From: Hyphomicrobiales bacterium | GTDB taxonomy: Bacteria; Pseudomonadota; Alphaproteobacteria; Rhizobiales; JAJFHB01 | Direction of reading: 5' to 3' | Length of the DNA stretch: 48,232 nt | Assembly: GCA_021775615.1 (NCBI GenBank) | Contig: JAJFHL010000147.1 | Coordinates: 1-48,232 of the forward strand | In this document: in pieces, positions 25,965 through 35,493 of the stretch | Layout: every line of letters starts with the position of its first letter | Numbering within the stretch: the stretch's first letter is position 1 | Made by a program: the position numbers and the translations under genes | Notes under the pieces: model-generated | Seen by the model: the letters and a program-made list of their open reading frames with translations, nothing else | What the model was told of the DNA's origin: nothing | Databases searched by the model: none

Positions 25965-27773
25965 ATGTTTGATTCGCTCCAGTTTCCAAGGATTTTTCCG
26001 GCCCTCGCCTTATTGGGTTCGCTGATCTGTGCATCGGTTCAGGCCGAACCACGGCACGGTATTGCAATGCATGGCGAGCCGGCCTATCCGGCGGGCTTCG
26101 CCCATTTCGCCTATGCCGATCCGGCGGCGCCCAAGGGCGGTACCGTCACTCTCGGCGTTCACGGCAGTTTCGACAGCACAAATCCCCTGATCATATCGGG
26201 TGTGGCGGCGGCAGGGCTGCGGGCGCATGTGTTCGAAAGCCTCATGGCAAGAGCACTGGACGAGCCGTTCTCGCTCTACGGCCTGATTGCCGAAACCATC
26301 GAGACGCCCGAGGATCGAGGCTGGGTGACGTTTACGCTCAATCCGAAGGCGCGGTTCTCCGATGGCAAGGCGGTAACCGTGGACGATGTGGTCTTCTCTC
26401 TGGAACTCCTGCGCGATCACGGCCGGCCCAATCACCGGCACTACTATTCCAAGGTGACCGGCATTGAACGGCTGGGTGGCACTGCGGTTAAGTTCGTTCT
26501 ACAGCCGGACGGCGACCGTGAGATGCCTCTCATTTTGGGGCTGATGCCGATTCTTCCGAAGCATCTCTACGATCCCGAGGCCTTCGAGAAGACGACATTG
26601 GACATCCCGACCGGGAGTGGTCCCTATTTGGTCGAAGACGTCGACCCTGGCGCACGCATCACCTATCGGCGCAATCCGGACTATTGGGCCAGAGATCTGG
26701 CTCCCAATGCCGGCCGGCACAATTTCGATGTGATCCGTTACGACTATTACCGGGACGCGAACGCCGTATTCGAGGCTTTCAAGAAAGGTCTCATAGATAT
26801 GCGCAGCGAGGGCGATCCGACCCGCTGGGCGACCGGGTACGATTTCCCCGCCGTCAACGATGGCAGGGTCGTCAAGGAAGAGTTCCCGACCGGCCTGCCG
26901 TCGGGCATGTCGGCATTCGTGTTCAACACCCGGCGCGAAAAGTTCGCCGATCAGCGTGTCCGGCGCGCCTTGCTGCACATGTTCGATTTCGAGTGGGCCA
27001 ACAAGTCGCTGTTCCACGGTCTCTACCGCCGGACGCGCAGCTTCTACGACAATTCGGAACTGGGCTCTGCCGACCGGCCGGCTGAAGCGGAGGAGCGCAA
27101 GCTGCTCGATGAGTTTCCACAAGTCGTGCTGCCGGACATACTCGAAGGCCGCTTCGCCATGCCGGTCAGCGACGGTTCGGGGCGCAATCGCATCAACCGC
27201 CGCATCGCGATCGCCATGCTCAAGGACGCCGGATATGTGATCAAGGACGGAGTGCTGGTCAACGCCAAGACGGACGCACCCTTTGTCTTCGAATTCGTAA
27301 CATCGTCACGGCAGCAGGAGCGCCTGGTCCTGCATTACACGCGCTCCCTCAAACGCATTGGGATCGAGGTGTCGGTGCGGCAGGTGGATTCTTCGCAGCT
27401 TCAGCGCCGCCGCCAGACCTACGACTTCGATATGATGCAGTATCACTGGTTTGCGTCGCTCTCGCCCGGTAACGAGCAGACATTCTACTGGGGTGCGGCA
27501 GGCCGCGACCGGGAAGGCACCCGAAACTACATGGGCGCCAGCGAGCCGGCGATCGACGCGATGATCGGGCACCTGCTTGCGGCGCGCGAAAGACCGGAAT
27601 TCGTCTCCGCCGCACGGGCTCTTGACCGTGTTCTGCTTTCGGGCTTCTACGTCATACCCCTGTACCATTCACCAACCCAATGGGCTGCCCGCTGGACACG
27701 TTTACACCATCCCAAGACAACTTCTCTGTACGGTTTTCAACTTGATACTTGGTGGTACGCCGAGAATCAGTGA
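25965..27773 (+). CDS. Family 5 extracellular solute-binding protein (YejA-like)
   Basis: A 602-residue periplasmic binding protein of the oligopeptide/nickel family, closest by motifs to YejA, which serves peptide and microcin C uptake. A signal peptide (IFPALALLGSLICASVQA) ends near residue 27. The mature N-terminus has HGIAMHGEPAYPAGFAHFAY and DPAAPKGG, typical of this branch, and SGPYLVEDVDPGARITYRRNPDYW is the family 5 signature region. No permease or ATPase gene is adjacent, so partners would be encoded elsewhere. The downstream synthetase-like gene begins 38 nt later and may be co-transcribed. Confidence 0.88.
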   Translation: MFDSLQFPRIFPALALLGSLICASVQAEPRHGIAMHGEPAYPAGFAHFAYADPAAPKGGTVTLGVHGSFDSTNPLIISGVAAAGLRAHVFESLMARALDEPFSLYGLIAETIETPEDRGWVTFTLNPKARFSDGKAVTVDDVVFSLELLRDHGRPNHRHYYSKVTGIERLGGTAVKFVLQPDGDREMPLILGLMPILPKHLYDPEAFEKTTLDIPTGSGPYLVEDVDPGARITYRRNPDYWARDLAPNAGRHNFDVIRYDYYRDANAVFEAFKKGLIDMRSEGDPTRWATGYDFPAVNDGRVVKEEFPTGLPSGMSAFVFNTRREKFADQRVRRALLHMFDFEWANKSLFHGLYRRTRSFYDNSELGSADRPAEAEERKLLDEFPQVVLPDILEGRFAMPVSDGSGRNRINRRIAIAMLKDAGYVIKDGVLVNAKTDAPFVFEFVTSSRQQERLVLHYTRSLKRIGIEVSVRQVDSSQLQRRRQTYDFDMMQYHWFASLSPGNEQTFYWGAAGRDREGTRNYMGASEPAIDAMIGHLLAARERPEFVSAARALDRVLLSGFYVIPLYHSPTQWAARWTRLHHPKTTSLYGFQLDTWWYAENQ

Positions 27774-27811: not shown

Positions 27812-29494
27812 ATGATCTTAACAGATCGCCTGGTCATTGAACAATTTGAAGCTTCGGGCATCTGGGGCGAAGCAACGCTTGTGGATTTGTTCGCGGCCGC
27901 CGCGCGGCGCTCGCCGGACAAGCTGGCGCTGGTCGACCCGCCGAACAGAGCCGCGGTGGCCGGTGGTTTGCCGCGCCGCCTGACCTTTGGGCAATTGTCT
28001 TCCGCGGTGGAAAATCTCGCGAGCGTTTTCCGCTCACTGCATCTGAAGCCGGACGACGTCGTTGCTTTTCAACTGCCGAACACGGTTGAGCAGGTCGTGG
28101 TGCTGCTGGCCGCGCTCAAGTGCGGACTGATTGCATCGCCTGTGCCCCTGCTCTGGCGAGAGCACGAAATCAAGACGGCACTTCCGCTGATCGGGCCCAA
28201 GGTCCTGCTTACGACACGCATGATTACCGGGCGCAATCATGAGGCCCTGATGTGTTCCGTGGCAGCGGAAAACATGACGGTCCGTGCCGTCATGTCGTTT
28301 GGCGACGGTGTCATGGACGGGGTCGTCGCGCTCGACGCGATTTTTACCGAAGAAACCGACGGGGACACGAGCACGGCCGCGTCCGAGGGTGCCAACGCGG
28401 TTGCTACTGTGTGCTGGGCAGGCGGCGATACGCCGACCCCCTGCCCTGTTCCCAGGTCGCATAATCAATGGATTGCAGCGGGCATGATGTCGCTGCTCGA
28501 GGCGGAGGTCGACGAGAGCTCGCACCTTCTTTGCCCCTATCCGTTGAACGGGCTGGTTTCGATCGGCGGCTTCATGGTTCCGTGGTTGCTGGCGGGCGCC
28601 ACGTTGTCTCTGCATCATCCCTTTGACCTGAAGGTATTTGTCGAGCAGCTGCGAAGCGAGGGCGTGACGATTGCCGGATTGCCGCCGGCAGTGATTGACC
28701 TCCTCAAATCGGAGGGCGCCTTCGAAAGCGACGGCGCAGCGGGCAGCCTCAAGACGCTGGCCTGTGTCTGGCCCGGGCCCCTGCTGCCAAAGGATGCCGA
28801 AGAGCGTGCCGCGGACTTGGTTGTGGGTGTGATCGATGTCAGGGCTCTCGGAGAGATGGCCTATATCGCCAAGCGCCGGGTGGCCGGAGAAAATCTGGCG
28901 GAGCTGGAACATGGCGAGTTCAGCTATCCGACACGGCGTGCCGGTGGAGCGGTCCTGCTGCAAACCCGCGTCAAGGGCGGGATTTCGAGCAACAAGCAGA
29001 TGGCGTCGCTGCTGACCGGTGATCTGATGATAAAGAGCCCGATGGCTTTCGATGCCTACTTCCCGGCCTGCATCGAGGGCGTCGACGAACCGGTTATCAC
29101 GAAAGATCCGCAAGGATACATCAACACAGGCCTGCGCTGCCTCCTGAGCGGCGGTTCCGCGACGAAGATCGAGATCATCAGACGCAATTCCAATGTCATA
29201 TTCTATGGTGGCCTGAGCGTTTCCGCCCACGAACTCGACCAGCTTTATGCCGATTTCCACGGCATTTCGGATGCTGCCGCATTCGCCTTCGACGATCCGG
29301 TCATGGGAGAGCGCATCCTGGCCGCGGTTGTCCCGCAACCGGGCATGACCATCGCATTCGATGAGTTTGTCGACTACCTGAACGAGCGTCAGGTCGCGCC
29401 TTACAAGGTGCCGGACCGGCTGGTCACGGTCAAAAGCATACCGCGTGATGGAGAAGGTGCCATTCTGCGCGACAAGGTGCTGGATCAGATTTAA
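27812..29494 (+). CDS. Degenerate adenylate-forming (acyl-CoA synthetase-like) protein
   Basis: A 560-residue protein with the fold of AMP-binding acyl-CoA synthetases but altered at every core motif. The P-loop (normally SGTTGxPKG) reads AGGDTPTPCPVPRSHNQ; the A5 YGxTE motif reads ALGEMA; the A8 TGD reads NTGLR; and the catalytic lysine of A10 (GKxxR) is alanine in PRDGEGAILRD. The fold is kept to the end (FYGGLSVSAHELD, APYKVPDRL). It is therefore probably not an active ligase but a ligand-binding or regulatory relative; it is intact, with no frameshift. GAGGGG lies 6 nt before the ATG. The next gene is a degenerate PleD-like protein 121 nt on. Confidence 0.8.
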   Translation: MILTDRLVIEQFEASGIWGEATLVDLFAAAARRSPDKLALVDPPNRAAVAGGLPRRLTFGQLSSAVENLASVFRSLHLKPDDVVAFQLPNTVEQVVVLLAALKCGLIASPVPLLWREHEIKTALPLIGPKVLLTTRMITGRNHEALMCSVAAENMTVRAVMSFGDGVMDGVVALDAIFTEETDGDTSTAASEGANAVATVCWAGGDTPTPCPVPRSHNQWIAAGMMSLLEAEVDESSHLLCPYPLNGLVSIGGFMVPWLLAGATLSLHHPFDLKVFVEQLRSEGVTIAGLPPAVIDLLKSEGAFESDGAAGSLKTLACVWPGPLLPKDAEERAADLVVGVIDVRALGEMAYIAKRRVAGENLAELEHGEFSYPTRRAGGAVLLQTRVKGGISSNKQMASLLTGDLMIKSPMAFDAYFPACIEGVDEPVITKDPQGYINTGLRCLLSGGSATKIEIIRRNSNVIFYGGLSVSAHELDQLYADFHGISDAAAFAFDDPVMGERILAAVVPQPGMTIAFDEFVDYLNERQVAPYKVPDRLVTVKSIPRDGEGAILRDKVLDQI

Positions 29495-29615
29495 CCGCGA
29501 TCCACGCAATTTCTTAAGCAAACCTTTACCACGTTCTCCGTAGAAGAGTCGGTACCGGAATTCGATTCTGCTTGGCTGGATTGCCCGCCTGGCGCACTGC
29601 ATGGAGTACATCTTG

Positions 29616-30968
29616 ATGCCCAGTACGGCGAGGGTCCTGATTGTCGGCGAAGGTTCCAGCGGCGGTGATCCCACCCTGCCCGAGGCATTGCAGAGGTGTG
29701 GTTTTTCCAGCAGAACCGTCGATCTCGCGGCGGGTTTGCAGGCCTGCTGCCAGGAAGACCGCCCTGATGTCGTGATCCTGAATCTCCTTGCCGAACATGC
29801 GGAGCAGCACATCGACAGGTTCGTCGCCTTTGCTCGCGACCTCAAGTCAGAGAGCGCCCTGACTCACATTCCCGTCATGGCAATCGGAGAAGAAGCGCGC
29901 TGCGGCGAGGCCCAGGTCGAAGAGATTCGCCATGCGAAGGTGGACGAAATTATCCTCGGCCCCTTCAACGAGCACCAGATTTGCGGCCGGCTAGGCGCTT
30001 TGGTCCGCCTTAACACCATGCACGAAGAGTTGGTTCGGCGTCTCAACACATCAGCGAAATACGGCGTCGATGCGCCGGTCATTGCCGCACCGCAGCGCAG
30101 TGTGGACGACGCGACCGTGCTGGTGGTGGGCGCAACGGAGAGCTACCCCGTCATCGAGAACACCCTGTCGCGACATGCGACCCTTGTCGGGGCGCTGACG
30201 CCCGAAACGGCGATGGACTACCTGACGCGGCGCCGGTTCGATACCGTGATTATCGACCTTGACGGCAACCCCGAGCCCTATATGGAGCTGTGCCGCGCGG
30301 TCCGAAGGAACTCAAGGCTGTTCAATCTCCCGATCGTGCTGATGGCGAAAGAACGGGATTTGAACGCGCCTGATGTGGCCGATTGTGAAGGCGTAACGGA
30401 CATTATCATGAAGCCGGTCCGCCCGCGCGAGCTGGAAACCCGCATTGTGTCGCTGATTTCGGAATTGCGGTTTCGCGATTCGCTGCGGGCAATCTACAAA
30501 GAAGCCCGCCACATGGCGACGAGCGACGGCCTGACGGGCCTCTACAGCCGCGGCTTCCTTCTTGAGCACCTGCGCAGCATGATCGCGGACGCCCGGCACC
30601 GTGCGGGCAAGTTCTCGCTCGCCTTCCTCGACATTTCCAACCTGGAAGCGATCAACTCGGAATTCGGATTTGTGGTCGGCGACCGCATCATTCGACAGGT
30701 TGGCGACATGATGGGATATCTGGTGCGCGGCGAAGATCTGACCGCGCGCTACTCGGGCGGCAGATTCTGCGTCATCCTGCCGGATACCTCGCTGGAGGCC
30801 GCTCGGGTCGCCGTCAAGCGCATCAGCGGTGTGGTCAAATGTACTGAACTGACCACGCCGGAAATGGAAAAGCCGGTCAAGGTGGATCTCATCTGCAGCA
30901 TTTGCGAATTTGACGACGACCGCGATCCTCAGAAGATGATACATCGCGTGCGCGCGATGATGAGTTGA
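29616..30968 (+). CDS. Degenerate PleD-like protein (REC-REC-GGDEF)
   Basis: A 450-residue protein with the PleD layout: two receiver domains (about residues 6-120 and 158-275) and a GGDEF domain (about 300-450). The first receiver has Asn where the phosphorylated Asp is expected (PDVVILNLL), and its acidic pair is lost (VLIVGEG). The second keeps Asp (TVIIDLD) but also lacks the acidic pair. The diguanylate cyclase signature is SGGRF instead of GGDEF/GGEEF. It is thus expected to be catalytically inactive, perhaps a c-di-GMP/GTP or protein-binding regulator. The ATG at 29616 has GGAG 9 nt upstream. Confidence 0.83.
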   Translation: MPSTARVLIVGEGSSGGDPTLPEALQRCGFSSRTVDLAAGLQACCQEDRPDVVILNLLAEHAEQHIDRFVAFARDLKSESALTHIPVMAIGEEARCGEAQVEEIRHAKVDEIILGPFNEHQICGRLGALVRLNTMHEELVRRLNTSAKYGVDAPVIAAPQRSVDDATVLVVGATESYPVIENTLSRHATLVGALTPETAMDYLTRRRFDTVIIDLDGNPEPYMELCRAVRRNSRLFNLPIVLMAKERDLNAPDVADCEGVTDIIMKPVRPRELETRIVSLISELRFRDSLRAIYKEARHMATSDGLTGLYSRGFLLEHLRSMIADARHRAGKFSLAFLDISNLEAINSEFGFVVGDRIIRQVGDMMGYLVRGEDLTARYSGGRFCVILPDTSLEAARVAVKRISGVVKCTELTTPEMEKPVKVDLICSICEFDDDRDPQKMIHRVRAMMS

Positions 30969-30975
30969 TCGGCCT

Positions 30976-31003
30976 AAGGCTCCCCGCCTTTTGCATTTTT
31001 TCT
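30976..31003 (+). terminator. Weak intrinsic terminator after the PleD-like gene
   Basis: AAGGC-TCCCC-GCCTT forms a short 5-bp stem, followed by TTGCATTTTTTC, 8 nt after the stop. The stem is short, so activity is uncertain. Confidence 0.4.
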
Positions 31004-31054
31004 TCCGGCGCGCCATATTGAGCTGATTTTCCCGTGTGCCCTGGAGAACAGCCG

Positions 31055-31744
31055 GTGACCACAGCCGACCCGCAACCGATTAGCGTCGATATCATCTCGG
31101 ACGTCATGTGCCCGTGGTGCTATATCGGCAAGCGCCGCTTTGAAAAAGCCCTGCAGCTCAAGCCCGACATCGCCGTTGATGTACGCTGGCGGCCGTATCA
31201 GCTCGACGAGACCATTCCTCCCGAAGGCGTCGACAGGCAGGAGTATCTCAGCAAGAAATTCGGCGGCACGGATCGGGCAAAGCAGATCTATCAGGCGGTG
31301 TCCGATGCAGGCGACATGGAAAGCATTCCCTTTGAGTTCGGCAAGATCGAGCGCTCTCCCAACACGGTGAATGCTCATCGGTTGATCAGATGGGCGGTTA
31401 CGCCCGGTCTGCAGGACGAAATGGTGGAGCGGCTGTTTTCCCTCTATTTCATAGAGGGTGGAGATCTAACCGATCGCGACGTGCTCCTGAAGGCGGCCGA
31501 AGATGTCGGTCTTGATACATCGCTCATCGCCGAATTGATTGATACAGACGCGGATGCGGAGCTTGTGAGCAAGGAAATCAATCTGGCGCGCGAGATGGGC
31601 GTCAGCGGCGTGCCCTGCTTCATTGTTGCCAACAAATATGCGGTGATGGGCGCGGAACAGCCCGAAGTGATCGCGCGGGCGCTTGAGATGGCGGTGGCGG
31701 ATCAGAACAACACCGAAACCCTCGCCGGGGAAGAGGTAAGCTAG
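31055..31744 (+). CDS. DsbA-family oxidoreductase (FrnE-like)
   Basis: A 229-residue cytoplasmic DsbA-fold protein of the FrnE/2-hydroxychromene-carboxylate isomerase group. The active motif is C19-P-W-C22 (DVMCPWCYIGKRR), and the cis-proline loop is GVSGVPCFIV. No signal peptide is seen, so it acts in the cytoplasm, where relatives help with oxidative stress or polyketide chemistry. The GTG at 31055 is chosen because CTGGAG lies 8 nt upstream; a GTG at 31034 is in frame. Its TAG stop is part of the CTAG end of repeat copy 3. Confidence 0.85.
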   Translation: MTTADPQPISVDIISDVMCPWCYIGKRRFEKALQLKPDIAVDVRWRPYQLDETIPPEGVDRQEYLSKKFGGTDRAKQIYQAVSDAGDMESIPFEFGKIERSPNTVNAHRLIRWAVTPGLQDEMVERLFSLYFIEGGDLTDRDVLLKAAEDVGLDTSLIAELIDTDADAELVSKEINLAREMGVSGVPCFIVANKYAVMGAEQPEVIARALEMAVADQNNTETLAGEEVS

Positions 31745-31969
31745 ACCCTTTCACCTTCATATTGAACCGTTTGATGGCGTCAAATCGGTTCGCTCGGTAA
31801 GAGCAGCCTGCGTCCGGTTGGACGCAGGCAAGCTGCTCGTGCTTAGTGAAATAGATCAAATACTCTGCGCTTAACCGGGATCGGTTAAGCGCAGTTTGAT
31901 CTATGCGCGGTGCGCAGTTCGATGCGGTGCATCGGGCAAGCGCTTCCGTAAGAAGAAGAAAGGGTCTAG
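31741..31969. repeat. MITE-like repeat, copy 3 (composite, 229 bp)
   Basis: The ends start CTAGACCCTTTC on both sides, but the inner part of the left arm resembles copy 2 (CACCTTCATATTGAAC) while the right arm matches copy 1 (TTACGG...TCTTCTTC type). Relative to copy 1 it lacks about half of the interior, with the junction at CAAGCG, and carries a 105-bp insertion (31801-31905). Both outer CTAGs contain stop codons: of the DsbA-like gene at left and of mfd at right. It lies between convergent genes. Confidence 0.85.
31801..31905. repeat. Two-hairpin RIME-like element nested in repeat copy 3
   Basis: Two large palindromes stand side by side. The first (31801-31838) pairs GAGCAGC and CTGCGTCC with their complements, with a 4-nt bulge (GCAA) on the 3' side and a GGTT loop. 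The second (31852-31903) pairs TAGATCAAA and CTGCGCTTAACC with their complements, with a 4-nt bulge (TACT) on the 5' side and a GGGATC loop. Neither is in copies 1 or 2. Size and two-palindrome layout match what is known of Rhizobium-specific intergenic mosaic elements; identity to a named family is not tested. Confidence 0.7.
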
Positions 31970-34900
31970 GCCACCGCCTGGTCTTCCGTGGCCACGCGCG
32001 CCAGCTGCTTCAGTATCACATGTGCACCCTTGAGGCGGTTTTCCGGGGTTGGCCAGTCGCGCTTGAGGACCATGGTGTGGTCGGGGCGCAGCTTTGCCAG
32101 CGTTCCCTGCTCGTTGATGTAGCCGATCAACCCGCCCGGGTTGGCAAACTGTCCGTTGCGGAATTTGAGAACGACGCCCTTGGGTCCGGCATCGACATTC
32201 GATATGCCGGCCTGGCGGCACAGGATCTTGATGGCGACGACTTCGAGCAGATGCTCGACCTCCTCTGGCAACGAGCCGAAACGGTCGACGAGTTCCGCGC
32301 CGAATGCCTGAACAGATTCCTGACCCTCAAGATCGGCCAACCTCCGGTACAGTCCGAGCCGCAGTTCGAGGTCCGTGACATATGTCTCGGGGATCAGTAC
32401 GGAGGTGCCGAGATTGATCTGCGGCGACCACTTGTCCTCCTGGGTATCGTCGTCGTCTCCGGCGCGCAGGCTGGCGACGGCTTCTTCCAGCATGTCCTGG
32501 TAGAGTTCGAAACCCACTTCCTTGATGTGGCCCGATTGCTCTTCGCCGAGCAGGTTTCCAGCTCCGCGGATGTCGAGATCATGGCTCGCCAGGGTGAAAC
32601 CGGCACCCAGCGAGTCGAGGGACTGCAGCACCCGCAACCGCTTGTCCGCGGTTTCGGTCAGGGGCCGGTTTGCCGGCACCGTAAAGAGCGCATAGGCACG
32701 GCTCTTGGAGCGCCCGACCCGGCCGCGCAGCTGATAGAGCTGGGCCAGGCCGAATTTGTCGGCGCGGTGGACAATCAGTGTGTTTGCCGTGGGGATATCG
32801 AGACCGGATTCGATGATCGTTGTCGACAACAGCACATTGTAGCTGCCTTCATAAAACGCGGTCATGACGTCTTCGAGTTGCCCGGTGGGCATCTGGCCAT
32901 GGGCGACGGCAAAACTTACCTCAGGCACGTGGTCTCGCAGGAATTCTTCGGTTTCGGGTAGGTCGGCAATGCGCGGACAGACATAAAAGCTCTGCCCGCC
33001 GCGATAGAGTTCGCGCAGCAGCGCCTCGCGGATGATGACCGGATCAAACGGGCTGATGAACGTTCTGACCGCGAGACGGTCGACCGGCGGGGTGGTGATG
33101 AGCGAGAGTTCGCGCACGCCGGTGAGCGCCAGCTGCAAGGTTCGCGGGATTGGCGTGGCCGTCAGCGTCAGGACGTGAACATTGGCACGCAGCTCCTTGA
33201 GACGCTCCTTGTGTGCGACCCCGAAATGCTGCTCCTCGTCGACGATGAGAAGGCCCAGGTCACGAAATGCTATCGATTTACCGAGCAGGGCATGAGTGCC
33301 GATGACGATGTCCACATCGCCGCTGGTCAGGCCGGACTTGGTCTTGTCGAGATCCGCCTTCGGCACCAGGCGCGAAGCCTGTTCGACGCGCACCGGAAGC
33401 CCGGCGAAACGTTCCTTGAAGGTCTGGTAGTGCTGACGCGCCAACAAGGTCGTCGGCACCACAAGGGCGACCTGCTTGCCCGACATGACCGCAATGAAGG
33501 CGGATCTGAGAGCGACTTCGGTCTTGCCGAAGCCGACATCGCCGCACACCAGCCGGTCCATGGGGCGGCCGGCCGCCAGATCGTCGACGACGGCGTCGAT
33601 TGCGGCGATCTGGTCCTCGGTCTCTTCAAACGGAAAGCGTGCGCAGAACTCGTCATAGAGCCCGTCGGTGGGCGCCAGCACTTCACCGCTCTTGAGGGTC
33701 CTTGCGGCGGCGGTCTTGATGAGCTGCTCGGCGATGTCGCGAATGCGCTGCTTGAGGCGTGCCTTGCGCGCCTGCCAGCCCGAACCGCCGAGCTTGTCGA
33801 GCTGGGCACCGGCGTCGTCCGAACCGTACCGGCTGAGAAGCTCGATATTTTCAACGGGGAGAAAGAGACGGTCGCCGCCCTGATAGACTATGAGCAGGCA
33901 GTCGTGCGGCGCCTCGTTGACGGTGATGGTCTGCAGGCCTTCGAATTGGCCGATACCGTGATCCACATGAACCACCAGGTCGCTCTGGGACAGTGAAGAG
34001 ACCTCGGTCAGGAAGTCTTCGGCGCGCTTGGTCCTGCGGGCGCGCCGGACCAGACGGTCGCCGAGTACGTCCTGTTCGCAGATGACGGCGATGTCTTCGG
34101 TTTCGAAACCTGTTTCCAGACCCAAAAGGACCAGCGATGCGGTGGTGGGCGGCAGGGCCAGCGCGTCGTGCCATGTGTCTGCCAGAACCGCCTGATCGGA
34201 GCTGTGATCGGCCATGACAGATTTCAGGCGATCGCGAGAGCCCTCGCTCCAGCATGCCACGACGACGCGTTTGCCCGAGCGTTGCGTTGCGTTGATGTGA
34301 TCTTGCAGCGCCTCGAACAGGTTGCGGTCGGTTTCGCCGCGTTCCGCCGCGAAGCTTCGACCCTGGCGCCCGCCAAGGGACATGGTGCGGTGCGAGCCCG
34401 AAACATCCGGCTGTTCGAAGTGTGAAAGCTGAACCGTCGGCAGGTTGCTGGAGGCCGATGTCCACTCGTCTTCGCTCAGATAGAGCGCATCGGGCGGGAT
34501 CGGATTGTAGATCGGTGCGCCGAGCGAATCCTGCTCGCGGGCGGCGATACGGGCATCGTAGTATTCGTTGATCTGCTCGAAGCGCGACCGGGCCGCGTCC
34601 TCCAGCAAGTGATCGAAAATCAGTGCGTCGGGTTTTACATAGTCGAACACGGTGCTCAGACCGTCATGGAAGAGTGGCAACCAGTGCTCCACGCCCTGAT
34701 AGCGGTGGCCGGACTTTACCGCTTCATAAAGAGGGTCCGGCCCGGTGACGCCGCCGAACAGGGCGCCATAGCCGGTCCTGAACCCGGTAACCGCTTCGGG
34801 CGTGAGCACAACCTCGCTCGCAGGCAGCAGGTCCATGCGCTTGAGCTGGCCGATGGTGCGCTGTGTTTGCGGATCGAACGTTCTGATGGATTCCAGCGTG

Positions 34901-35493
34901 TCGCCAAAAAAGTCGAGCCGGAGGGGCGCGCCGGTTCCCGGTGCGTAGAGGTCTACAATACCGCCACGGATGGCGTAGTCGCCCGGATCGACGACGGTAC
35001 CGGTCCGGTTGAAGCCGTTCTGTGCGAAATAGGTCTTCAGATGGTCGATGTCGATCCGGTTGCCCGGGGCCGCATTGAGGGCACCGCGGGCTATGAACTC
35101 TGGACGGGGCACCCGTTGCAGGACGGCGTTCGCCGTCGCAAGGATGAGCCGCGGCCGTGATGCGGGTTCTGATTTCGTGAGTTGTGCCAGTGTGGCGATG
35201 CGCTCCGCCACGATGCCGGGGCGCGGAGAAACCCTGTCGTACGGCAGGCAATCCCACGCGGGCAGCCGCAGGACGTCTATGTCGGGTGCAAAGAACGCCA
35301 ATGCATCATATGTGGCTGCAAGTCGCGCATCGTCCCTGGTGATGAACAGAACCGGGCGGCTGGCCGGTGACTTGGAATGCCGCGCGCGCGTATAGTCGCC
35401 GGCGAACAACGCGTCGAGACCCTCAGGTACCCCGCCGATGGTTGTTCTGGCACCCGAGGCGATGATCTCCTCAAGCTGTTTCACTCGACCCAT
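31966..35493 (-). CDS. mfd: Transcription-repair coupling factor
   Basis: A complete 1175-residue Mfd, which releases stalled RNA polymerase and recruits UvrA. The N-terminal UvrB-homology module, the RNA-polymerase-interacting domain (VVHVDHGIGQFEGLQ), the RecG-like translocase motor with Walker A GDVGFGKT (about residue 650) and DEEQHFG box (about residue 750), and the C-terminal TRCF domain are all present. The ATG at 35493 is chosen, though the ribosome site is weak. It lies 19 nt downstream of sdhE on the same strand. Its TAG stop is inside the terminal CTAG of repeat copy 3. Confidence 0.96.
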   Translation of the reverse strand: MGRVKQLEEIIASGARTTIGGVPEGLDALFAGDYTRARHSKSPASRPVLFITRDDARLAATYDALAFFAPDIDVLRLPAWDCLPYDRVSPRPGIVAERIATLAQLTKSEPASRPRLILATANAVLQRVPRPEFIARGALNAAPGNRIDIDHLKTYFAQNGFNRTGTVVDPGDYAIRGGIVDLYAPGTGAPLRLDFFGDTLESIRTFDPQTQRTIGQLKRMDLLPASEVVLTPEAVTGFRTGYGALFGGVTGPDPLYEAVKSGHRYQGVEHWLPLFHDGLSTVFDYVKPDALIFDHLLEDAARSRFEQINEYYDARIAAREQDSLGAPIYNPIPPDALYLSEDEWTSASSNLPTVQLSHFEQPDVSGSHRTMSLGGRQGRSFAAERGETDRNLFEALQDHINATQRSGKRVVVACWSEGSRDRLKSVMADHSSDQAVLADTWHDALALPPTTASLVLLGLETGFETEDIAVICEQDVLGDRLVRRARRTKRAEDFLTEVSSLSQSDLVVHVDHGIGQFEGLQTITVNEAPHDCLLIVYQGGDRLFLPVENIELLSRYGSDDAGAQLDKLGGSGWQARKARLKQRIRDIAEQLIKTAAARTLKSGEVLAPTDGLYDEFCARFPFEETEDQIAAIDAVVDDLAAGRPMDRLVCGDVGFGKTEVALRSAFIAVMSGKQVALVVPTTLLARQHYQTFKERFAGLPVRVEQASRLVPKADLDKTKSGLTSGDVDIVIGTHALLGKSIAFRDLGLLIVDEEQHFGVAHKERLKELRANVHVLTLTATPIPRTLQLALTGVRELSLITTPPVDRLAVRTFISPFDPVIIREALLRELYRGGQSFYVCPRIADLPETEEFLRDHVPEVSFAVAHGQMPTGQLEDVMTAFYEGSYNVLLSTTIIESGLDIPTANTLIVHRADKFGLAQLYQLRGRVGRSKSRAYALFTVPANRPLTETADKRLRVLQSLDSLGAGFTLASHDLDIRGAGNLLGEEQSGHIKEVGFELYQDMLEEAVASLRAGDDDDTQEDKWSPQINLGTSVLIPETYVTDLELRLGLYRRLADLEGQESVQAFGAELVDRFGSLPEEVEHLLEVVAIKILCRQAGISNVDAGPKGVVLKFRNGQFANPGGLIGYINEQGTLAKLRPDHTMVLKRDWPTPENRLKGAHVILKQLARVATEDQAVA

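Follow-up and report, generated by a model that had tools for sequence, protein, structure and literature searches.

PopA of Caulobacter crescentus/vibrioides (CC1842) has been described as an inactive REC-REC-GGDEF protein that binds cyclic di-GMP (c-di-GMP) through an RxxD motif (PMC10333796, PMC3764195). CitA, presented as a moonlighting citrate synthase of Caulobacter cell-cycle control, is a precedent for a metabolic-enzyme fold acting in that control without its catalysis (PMC7083601). Here, we have analyzed a window of 48,232 nucleotides (the whole stretch of DNA, contig JAJFHL010000147.1 of assembly GCA_021775615.1) from the draft genome of a Hyphomicrobiales bacterium (6.26 Mb, 96.65% complete), focusing on a synthetase-like gene, ACS1 (27812..29494, + strand), and a PleD-like gene (29601..30968, + strand, alternative start ATG 29616). 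A sequence-only reading had placed the two genes in the same direction behind a solute-binding protein, and the open reading frames (ORFs), strands and coordinates confirmed this: both ORFs are unbroken and follow SBP5, coding for a family-5 extracellular solute-binding protein (25965..27773, + strand; Pfam SBP_bac_5, 5.3e-65). The 121-nt gap that this reading gave between the two genes is correct from ATG 29616, evidently the start it had used; the gap is 106 nt from the ACS1 stop at 29494 to ATG 29601. We propose, with a probability of about 70%, that the PleD-like gene encodes an ortholog of PopA and ACS1 an ancient acyl-adenylating enzyme, now dead, the two lying in a single conserved chromosomal neighbourhood (SBP5, ACS1, in some genomes an intact second synthetase named ACS2, PopA, a DsbA-fold gene and mfd); the homologies, the gene order, the loss of catalytic residues and the retention of RxxD were observed directly.

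The PleD-like protein matched Pfam GGDEF (3.5e-26) and Response_reg (4.2e-07, second receiver only), and reached 198 bits (1.9e-58) against the NCBIfam PleD model, whose cut-off is 474. A REC-REC-GGDEF architecture was found by a full-length profile match, by the AlphaFold model (predicted local distance difference test, pLDDT, 85.3) and by PleD being the best full-length fold in the PDB, with a TM (template modelling) score of only 0.5-0.57 and a different domain arrangement. We have then compared the protein with PleD in PleD numbering, taking position 53 to be the phospho-acceptor, R359/D362 to be the I-site and other positions to be metal or guanine contacts. The receiver positions D53, D9 and K105 have become N, G and G, and E370, E371 and K332 have become G, R and E, with R359, D362, D327, N335 and D344 being retained. 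Both the phospho-acceptor Asp and the GGEEF of active PleD are missing, the latter being replaced by SGGRF (30753..30767, + strand), a broken cyclase active site; the c-di-GMP I-site RxxD is kept as RGED (30726..30737, + strand). Thus, the sequence-only reading was right that the protein has lost its catalytic residues and kept its fold. It had missed the intact I-site. Its proposal that one of the two proteins binds an acyl or nucleotide ligand very probably holds for PopA, with c-di-GMP as the nucleotide.

The I-site is conserved well beyond the window. In 44 PopA-family rows (46 chosen loci minus the short L086 and L132; L134 and L184 represent one gene), R359 was present in 42/42 and D362 in 40/42 rows with a letter there, the remaining two of the 44 rows having gaps at the I-site. 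A separate 23-row alignment had an invariant Arg and the Asp in 22 rows. The metal residue E370 was Glu only in the five Caulobacter rows. The guanine-contact residues (N335 and D344 equivalents) are also kept in the window protein despite its lost catalysis, N335 being Val in Caulobacter PopA. The fold search matched PleD structures with ppGpp and pppGpp (PDB 9g85 and 9g86); together with the kept N335 and D344, these suggest that another guanine nucleotide could be a PopA input.

The assignment of the gene as a PopA ortholog relied on the tree and on gene order. Five Caulobacter genomes were recognised by the identity of their PleD to the PDB PleD sequence (G518, 100%; G537 and G571, 99%; G638, 96%; G567, 92%). 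In each of them the family profile gave two full-length matches, PleD (246-249 bits) and one better-scoring protein (275.5-283 bits), which we assigned to PopA by elimination, motif and architecture, not from a database record. This protein carries RVED and a broken GGDEF. A DsbA-fold gene adjoins it in 5/5 genomes, 45-48% identical to that of the window (31034..31744, + strand; Pfam DSBA, 4.4e-45), and mfd follows in 3/5, as it does in the window (31966..35493, - strand; TIGR00580, 999 bits, above cut-off). Upstream, the Caulobacter gene has a divergent CoA-transferase, whereas Hyphomicrobiales carry SBP5-ACS1-(ACS2). In the tree, all 44 PopA-family rows, including those of the window and Caulobacter, split from 17 PleDs and 4 other GGDEF proteins with a Shimodaira-Hasegawa-like approximate likelihood ratio test (SH-aLRT) value of 99. 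A canonical PleD with GGEEF is encoded elsewhere in the window's genome (contig C296; 676.7 bits, cut-off 474). In view of the separate clade and this second gene, we rejected the reading that the window gene is PleD itself, with which it shares architecture and fold. Tree and gene order thus identify the predicted protein as an ortholog of PopA, an effector of a kind already described, and the earlier idea of an undescribed two-protein system is not supported.

We have searched 387 genomes of the class with the PopA-family profile. Matches at 1e-50 came from 176/387 genomes, many through PleD alone. At least 272 bits were reached in 26/387 genomes, the window's included; the next matches, with second matches of already counted genomes among them, stayed at or below 266 bits. 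The 25 other genomes span 13 families. The DsbA-fold gene adjoins PopA in all 18 class regions fetched and is a class-wide neighbour; the remaining 7 of the 25 were assigned by score alone. Since the 272-bit line misses Caulobacter PopA, the count is a lower bound.

Several observations weigh against this interpretation of the PleD-like gene. The identity between the window protein, known here from its sequence, and Caulobacter PopA is only 30-32%, so the client may differ. The window protein has not lost D327, a metal position, and two close PopA relatives from other orders (L120 and L129) still read GGDEF. Inactivity therefore need not hold for every family member, and some members of the clade may have kept, or only partly lost, cyclase activity. 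The mfd gene was within the stretch in 10/18 class regions and not in 8/18, and it lies away from PopA in 2/5 Caulobacter genomes (G638 and G567). Finally, the PopA and ACS1 trees were built quickly and contain long branches.

ACS1 matched Pfam AMP-binding (1.2e-35) and AMP-binding_C (4.9e-08). Its AlphaFold model is a confident ANL fold (pLDDT 89.1) with the large N-terminal and small C-terminal domains of this layout, and its best PDB matches were CahJ and EntE (TM 0.8). It has this two-domain fold in common with EntE/CahJ-type aryl-acid adenylating enzymes and with acyl-CoA synthetases; unlike them, ACS1 of the window and its relatives in the order has lost the ATP-site motifs. For these we use the motif names P-loop, TGD, A5, A8 and A10. 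In the window, none of three catalytic residues (P-loop Lys, TGD Asp, A10 Lys) remains: the A3 P-loop place (28415..28471, + strand) now reads WAGGDTPTPCPVPRSHNQW, as compared with WTSGTEARPKGVPRSHNHW in an intact relative, and the codon at the A10 lysine place (29459..29461, + strand) now encodes Ala. Among the order members, the P-loop Lys was missing in 29/32, the TGD Asp in 31/31 and the A10 Lys in 29/31. The A5 Glu/Asp was retained in 30/32 and the A8 glycine in 31/31, and the non-catalytic R158, G170 and P291 were conserved across families in 32/32. This tally omits L160, L164 and L177 (contigs of L070, L069 and L074), the fragment L169 and eleven further relatives; the latter likewise have no intact P-loop. 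The claim of a synthetase-like protein stripped of catalysis with its fold kept was therefore also borne out. An antisense ORF of 603 codons (28034-29845, - strand) overlies most of ACS1, and a similar one lies over ACS1 in L072; it is probably a composition effect.

In the ACS1 tree, a single clade with an SH-aLRT value of 100 held the 36 pseudoenzyme rows; its stem measured 0.95 changes per column. The tree took 7 of the 11 further relatives and 5 of the 17 ACS2 rows, and left out L160 with its ACS2, L164, L177, L169, L162, L175 and L170. The nearest relatives of the clade are intact enzymes. A class search for ACS1, scoring three candidates per genome, gave 5/387 matches at 1e-60 (G211 among them). 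Four intact relatives, in G333, in G114 and on plasmids of C. necator (pENH92) and S. granuli (pRW412b), are class I adenylate-forming enzymes that fall with ACS1 in the tree, ACS2 and other synthetases being separate; they differ from ACS1 by their intact motifs and by a nitronate monooxygenase-like neighbour in 4/4. In G333, which belongs to another order, the intact ACS1 lies beside the nitronate monooxygenase-like gene, and the neighbourhood is homologous, including SBP5, ACS2, DsbA and mfd as well as extra genes (L136, 3363-18001); PopA was not detected at this locus. The G333 locus likely pictures a catabolic origin of ACS1. The simplest reading of these sequences would be that catalysis was lost once, after the enzyme had come to reside at this locus, and that the gene was then retained; alternatively, the intact gene could have been transferred later into the G333 locus.

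We have then compared the distribution of the two genes across 61 genomes of the order (60 relatives and the window's own). The ACS1 search matched 33/61 at 1e-20. After excluding G057, with an intact P-loop, and counting G007, G033 and G052 as genomes without the gene, ACS1 was present in 29/61, with 18 strong matches and 11 at 192-424 bits. Contig ends blocked the ACS1-PopA comparison in three of the 29 (G049, G002 and G029), and PopA lay next or next but one to ACS1 in 10 of the 26 testable genomes. With both genes on one contig, they were co-directional neighbours in 10/10 genomes, separated by ACS2 in four of these and by an alpha/beta hydrolase in one. Named loci gave the same picture. 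Of 79 that matched a closer PopA alignment, with no Caulobacter among the titles listed, we annotated 31 (L158-L188), the other 48 having matched only at 26-42% over part of the query; in the 21 with enough flank (18 with a title naming the order or one of its members, 3 titled just bacterium or proteobacterium; 6 of the 21 being contigs already counted), ACS1 was upstream of PopA in 21/21 and ACS2 was in between in 11. The sequence-only reading had missed this intact synthetase gene, which is found, for example, at 9322-10896 in L068, 9189-10817 in L070 and 9016-10623 in L080. In the window's own draft genome ACS2 was not found, the best match scoring 245 bits, whereas the 17 ACS2 rows from relatives score 653-893. 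In view of the constant order and direction, we rejected chance adjacency of ACS1 and PopA.

Made specific, the proposal from sequence would be a dedicated non-catalytic module of the two proteins, with ACS1 as the sensor of an acyl or acyl-CoA ligand and PopA as the receiver of its state. We consider this unlikely. Besides the constant order of loci with both genes, co-occurrence speaks for it: ACS1 was present in 11/11 PopA-bearing genomes of the order and in 18/48 others, with p values, ignoring kinship, of 1.2e-4 when two contig-end cases are set aside and 3.9e-3 when they count against. The distance correlation between ACS1 and PopA given Mfd, 0.65 in 15 genomes (of 20 loci), points the same way, but it was not robust and dropped to 0.35 without one divergent genome, no better than that of ACS1 with DsbA. 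Synteny alone shows no functional pair, because gene order is likewise conserved for SBP5, DsbA, mfd, sdhE and recG. Moreover, PopA was eroded or undetected in 16/26 testable ACS1 genomes: an eroded PopA-like protein (24-199 bits) follows ACS1 in six (G045, G051, G043, G038, G054 and G046), and PopA was not detected in ten (G040, G016, G034, G013, G060, G032, G014, G022, G037 and G053). Outside the order, PopA occurred without ACS1 in 15/15 class regions whose upstream flank reached 2 kb or more (in another 3 it was too short) and in 5/5 Caulobacter regions.

The firmer companion of ACS1 is SBP5, directly upstream in 28/29 genomes (the exception being G053). Together with the eroded or undetected PopA proteins and the PopA genes without ACS1, this leaves the paired sensing module only partly supported: the neighbouring pseudoenzymes are conserved and syntenic across families, but the pair is not obligate, a well-preserved PopA being found in only 10/26 testable ACS1 genomes. 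A fixed pair, which independent loss of the genes had been said to count against, is weakened accordingly. ACS1 and PopA are old neighbours, not an obligatory pair. Very diverged PopA-like proteins also lie between ACS1 and DsbA/mfd in L085 (5908-7098), L086 (5501-6742), L084 (8866-10146), L269 and L267; the I-site position reads R-x-x-D in L085 and L086, with Cys for Asp in L084.

Quite improbable, in our view, is an ACS1 that is still alive and catalyses part of its reaction or a changed one, for instance thioester transfer with acyl-AMP supplied by another synthetase. The kept A8 glycine and A5 Glu/Asp and the intact C-terminal domain would be compatible with such a reaction, but the P-loop Lys, TGD Asp and A10 Lys were lost together across the order and a substitute motif was not seen. 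It is even harder to accept that both genes are decaying remnants surviving by chance in a stable neighbourhood. The many ACS1 genomes with an eroded or undetected PopA and the fast evolution of ACS1 (mean distance 1.49, as compared with 0.52 for Mfd) would fit decay, but the frames are unbroken in the window and in the listed relatives of the order, and ACS1 was long retained after a single loss. In view of the conserved positions of both proteins (R158, G170 and P291 of ACS1; RxxD in 40/42 PopA rows) and of the ACS1 clade, we rejected simple decay. An origin of the PleD-like gene from a PleD copy that degenerated on its own, separately from PopA, is scarcely credible: PleD and PopA have REC-REC-GGDEF in common and the tree branches are long, but the gene falls in one clade with Caulobacter PopA and has the DsbA-fold and, in part, the mfd neighbours in common with Caulobacter.

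By analogy with Caulobacter PopA, as its mechanism is presented in PMC8973945, PMC3764195, PMC7200025 and PMC10333796, the PopA ortholog would synthesize no c-di-GMP, would bind it at the I-site RGED, would form dimers by way of the C-terminal domain and, jointly with RcdA and CpdR, would hand a client, probably CtrA, to the protease ClpXP. It thus likely reads c-di-GMP and serves as a proteolytic adaptor. The domain PF07323, which we take to be the RcdA family, was found in the window's genome and in 54/60 relatives, and this occurrence is too general for a specific test. As for ACS1, we infer with less certainty an origin from an active synthetase that occupied this locus; the protein would have been retained to bind a partner (acyl, acyl-CoA or protein), perhaps in the service of ACS2 or of the SBP5 pathway, and not as a partner dedicated to PopA. 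It most likely binds a ligand rather than converting it, and PopA is no better a candidate partner than the SBP5 pathway or, in genomes that have it, ACS2. The 38-nt gap from the SBP5 end to the ACS1 start and a terminator-like hairpin 8 nt past PopA (30976..30990, + strand, a consensus match only) are compatible, though weakly, with one transcription unit; the scanned stretch has 8 such hairpins against 4.8 expected from shuffles. More doubtfully, ACS1 might report acyl/acyl-CoA status to PopA, so that nutrient (the SBP5 cargo) or lipid state would gate CtrA proteolysis in Hyphomicrobiales, and a second nucleotide, such as GTP or (p)ppGpp, might act as an input through the retained N335 and D344. 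CitA, by comparison, is an active enzyme; any role of ACS1 is putative.

The description given by the sequence-only reading was right, and the novelty lies elsewhere, in a known kind of effector beside a predicted dead synthetase that extends across the order. PopA occurs well outside Caulobacterales, contrary to a review, and was found where it was said to be absent; meliloti, for one, is stated to be without PopA (PMC11500502). The wider occurrence was not wholly unknown, since the tree of a 2023 review already shows PopA-like receptors of alphaproteobacteria (PMC10333796). In the literature searched, no mention was found of PopA gene-order orthology or of the Hyphomicrobiales locus, and nothing on this pair came up under pseudo-adenylating enzyme or PopA with acyl-CoA. 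The Hyphomicrobiales orthologs and the PopA-like proteins of 13 further families suggest that c-di-GMP-controlled adaptor proteolysis is older than Caulobacterales and has often been lost. With catalysis apparently lost a single time and the gene then maintained through much of the order, this synthetase offers a clean case for finding the role of a dead ANL enzyme. If ACS1 did report to PopA, the two would make a metabolic checkpoint built from two pseudoenzymes.

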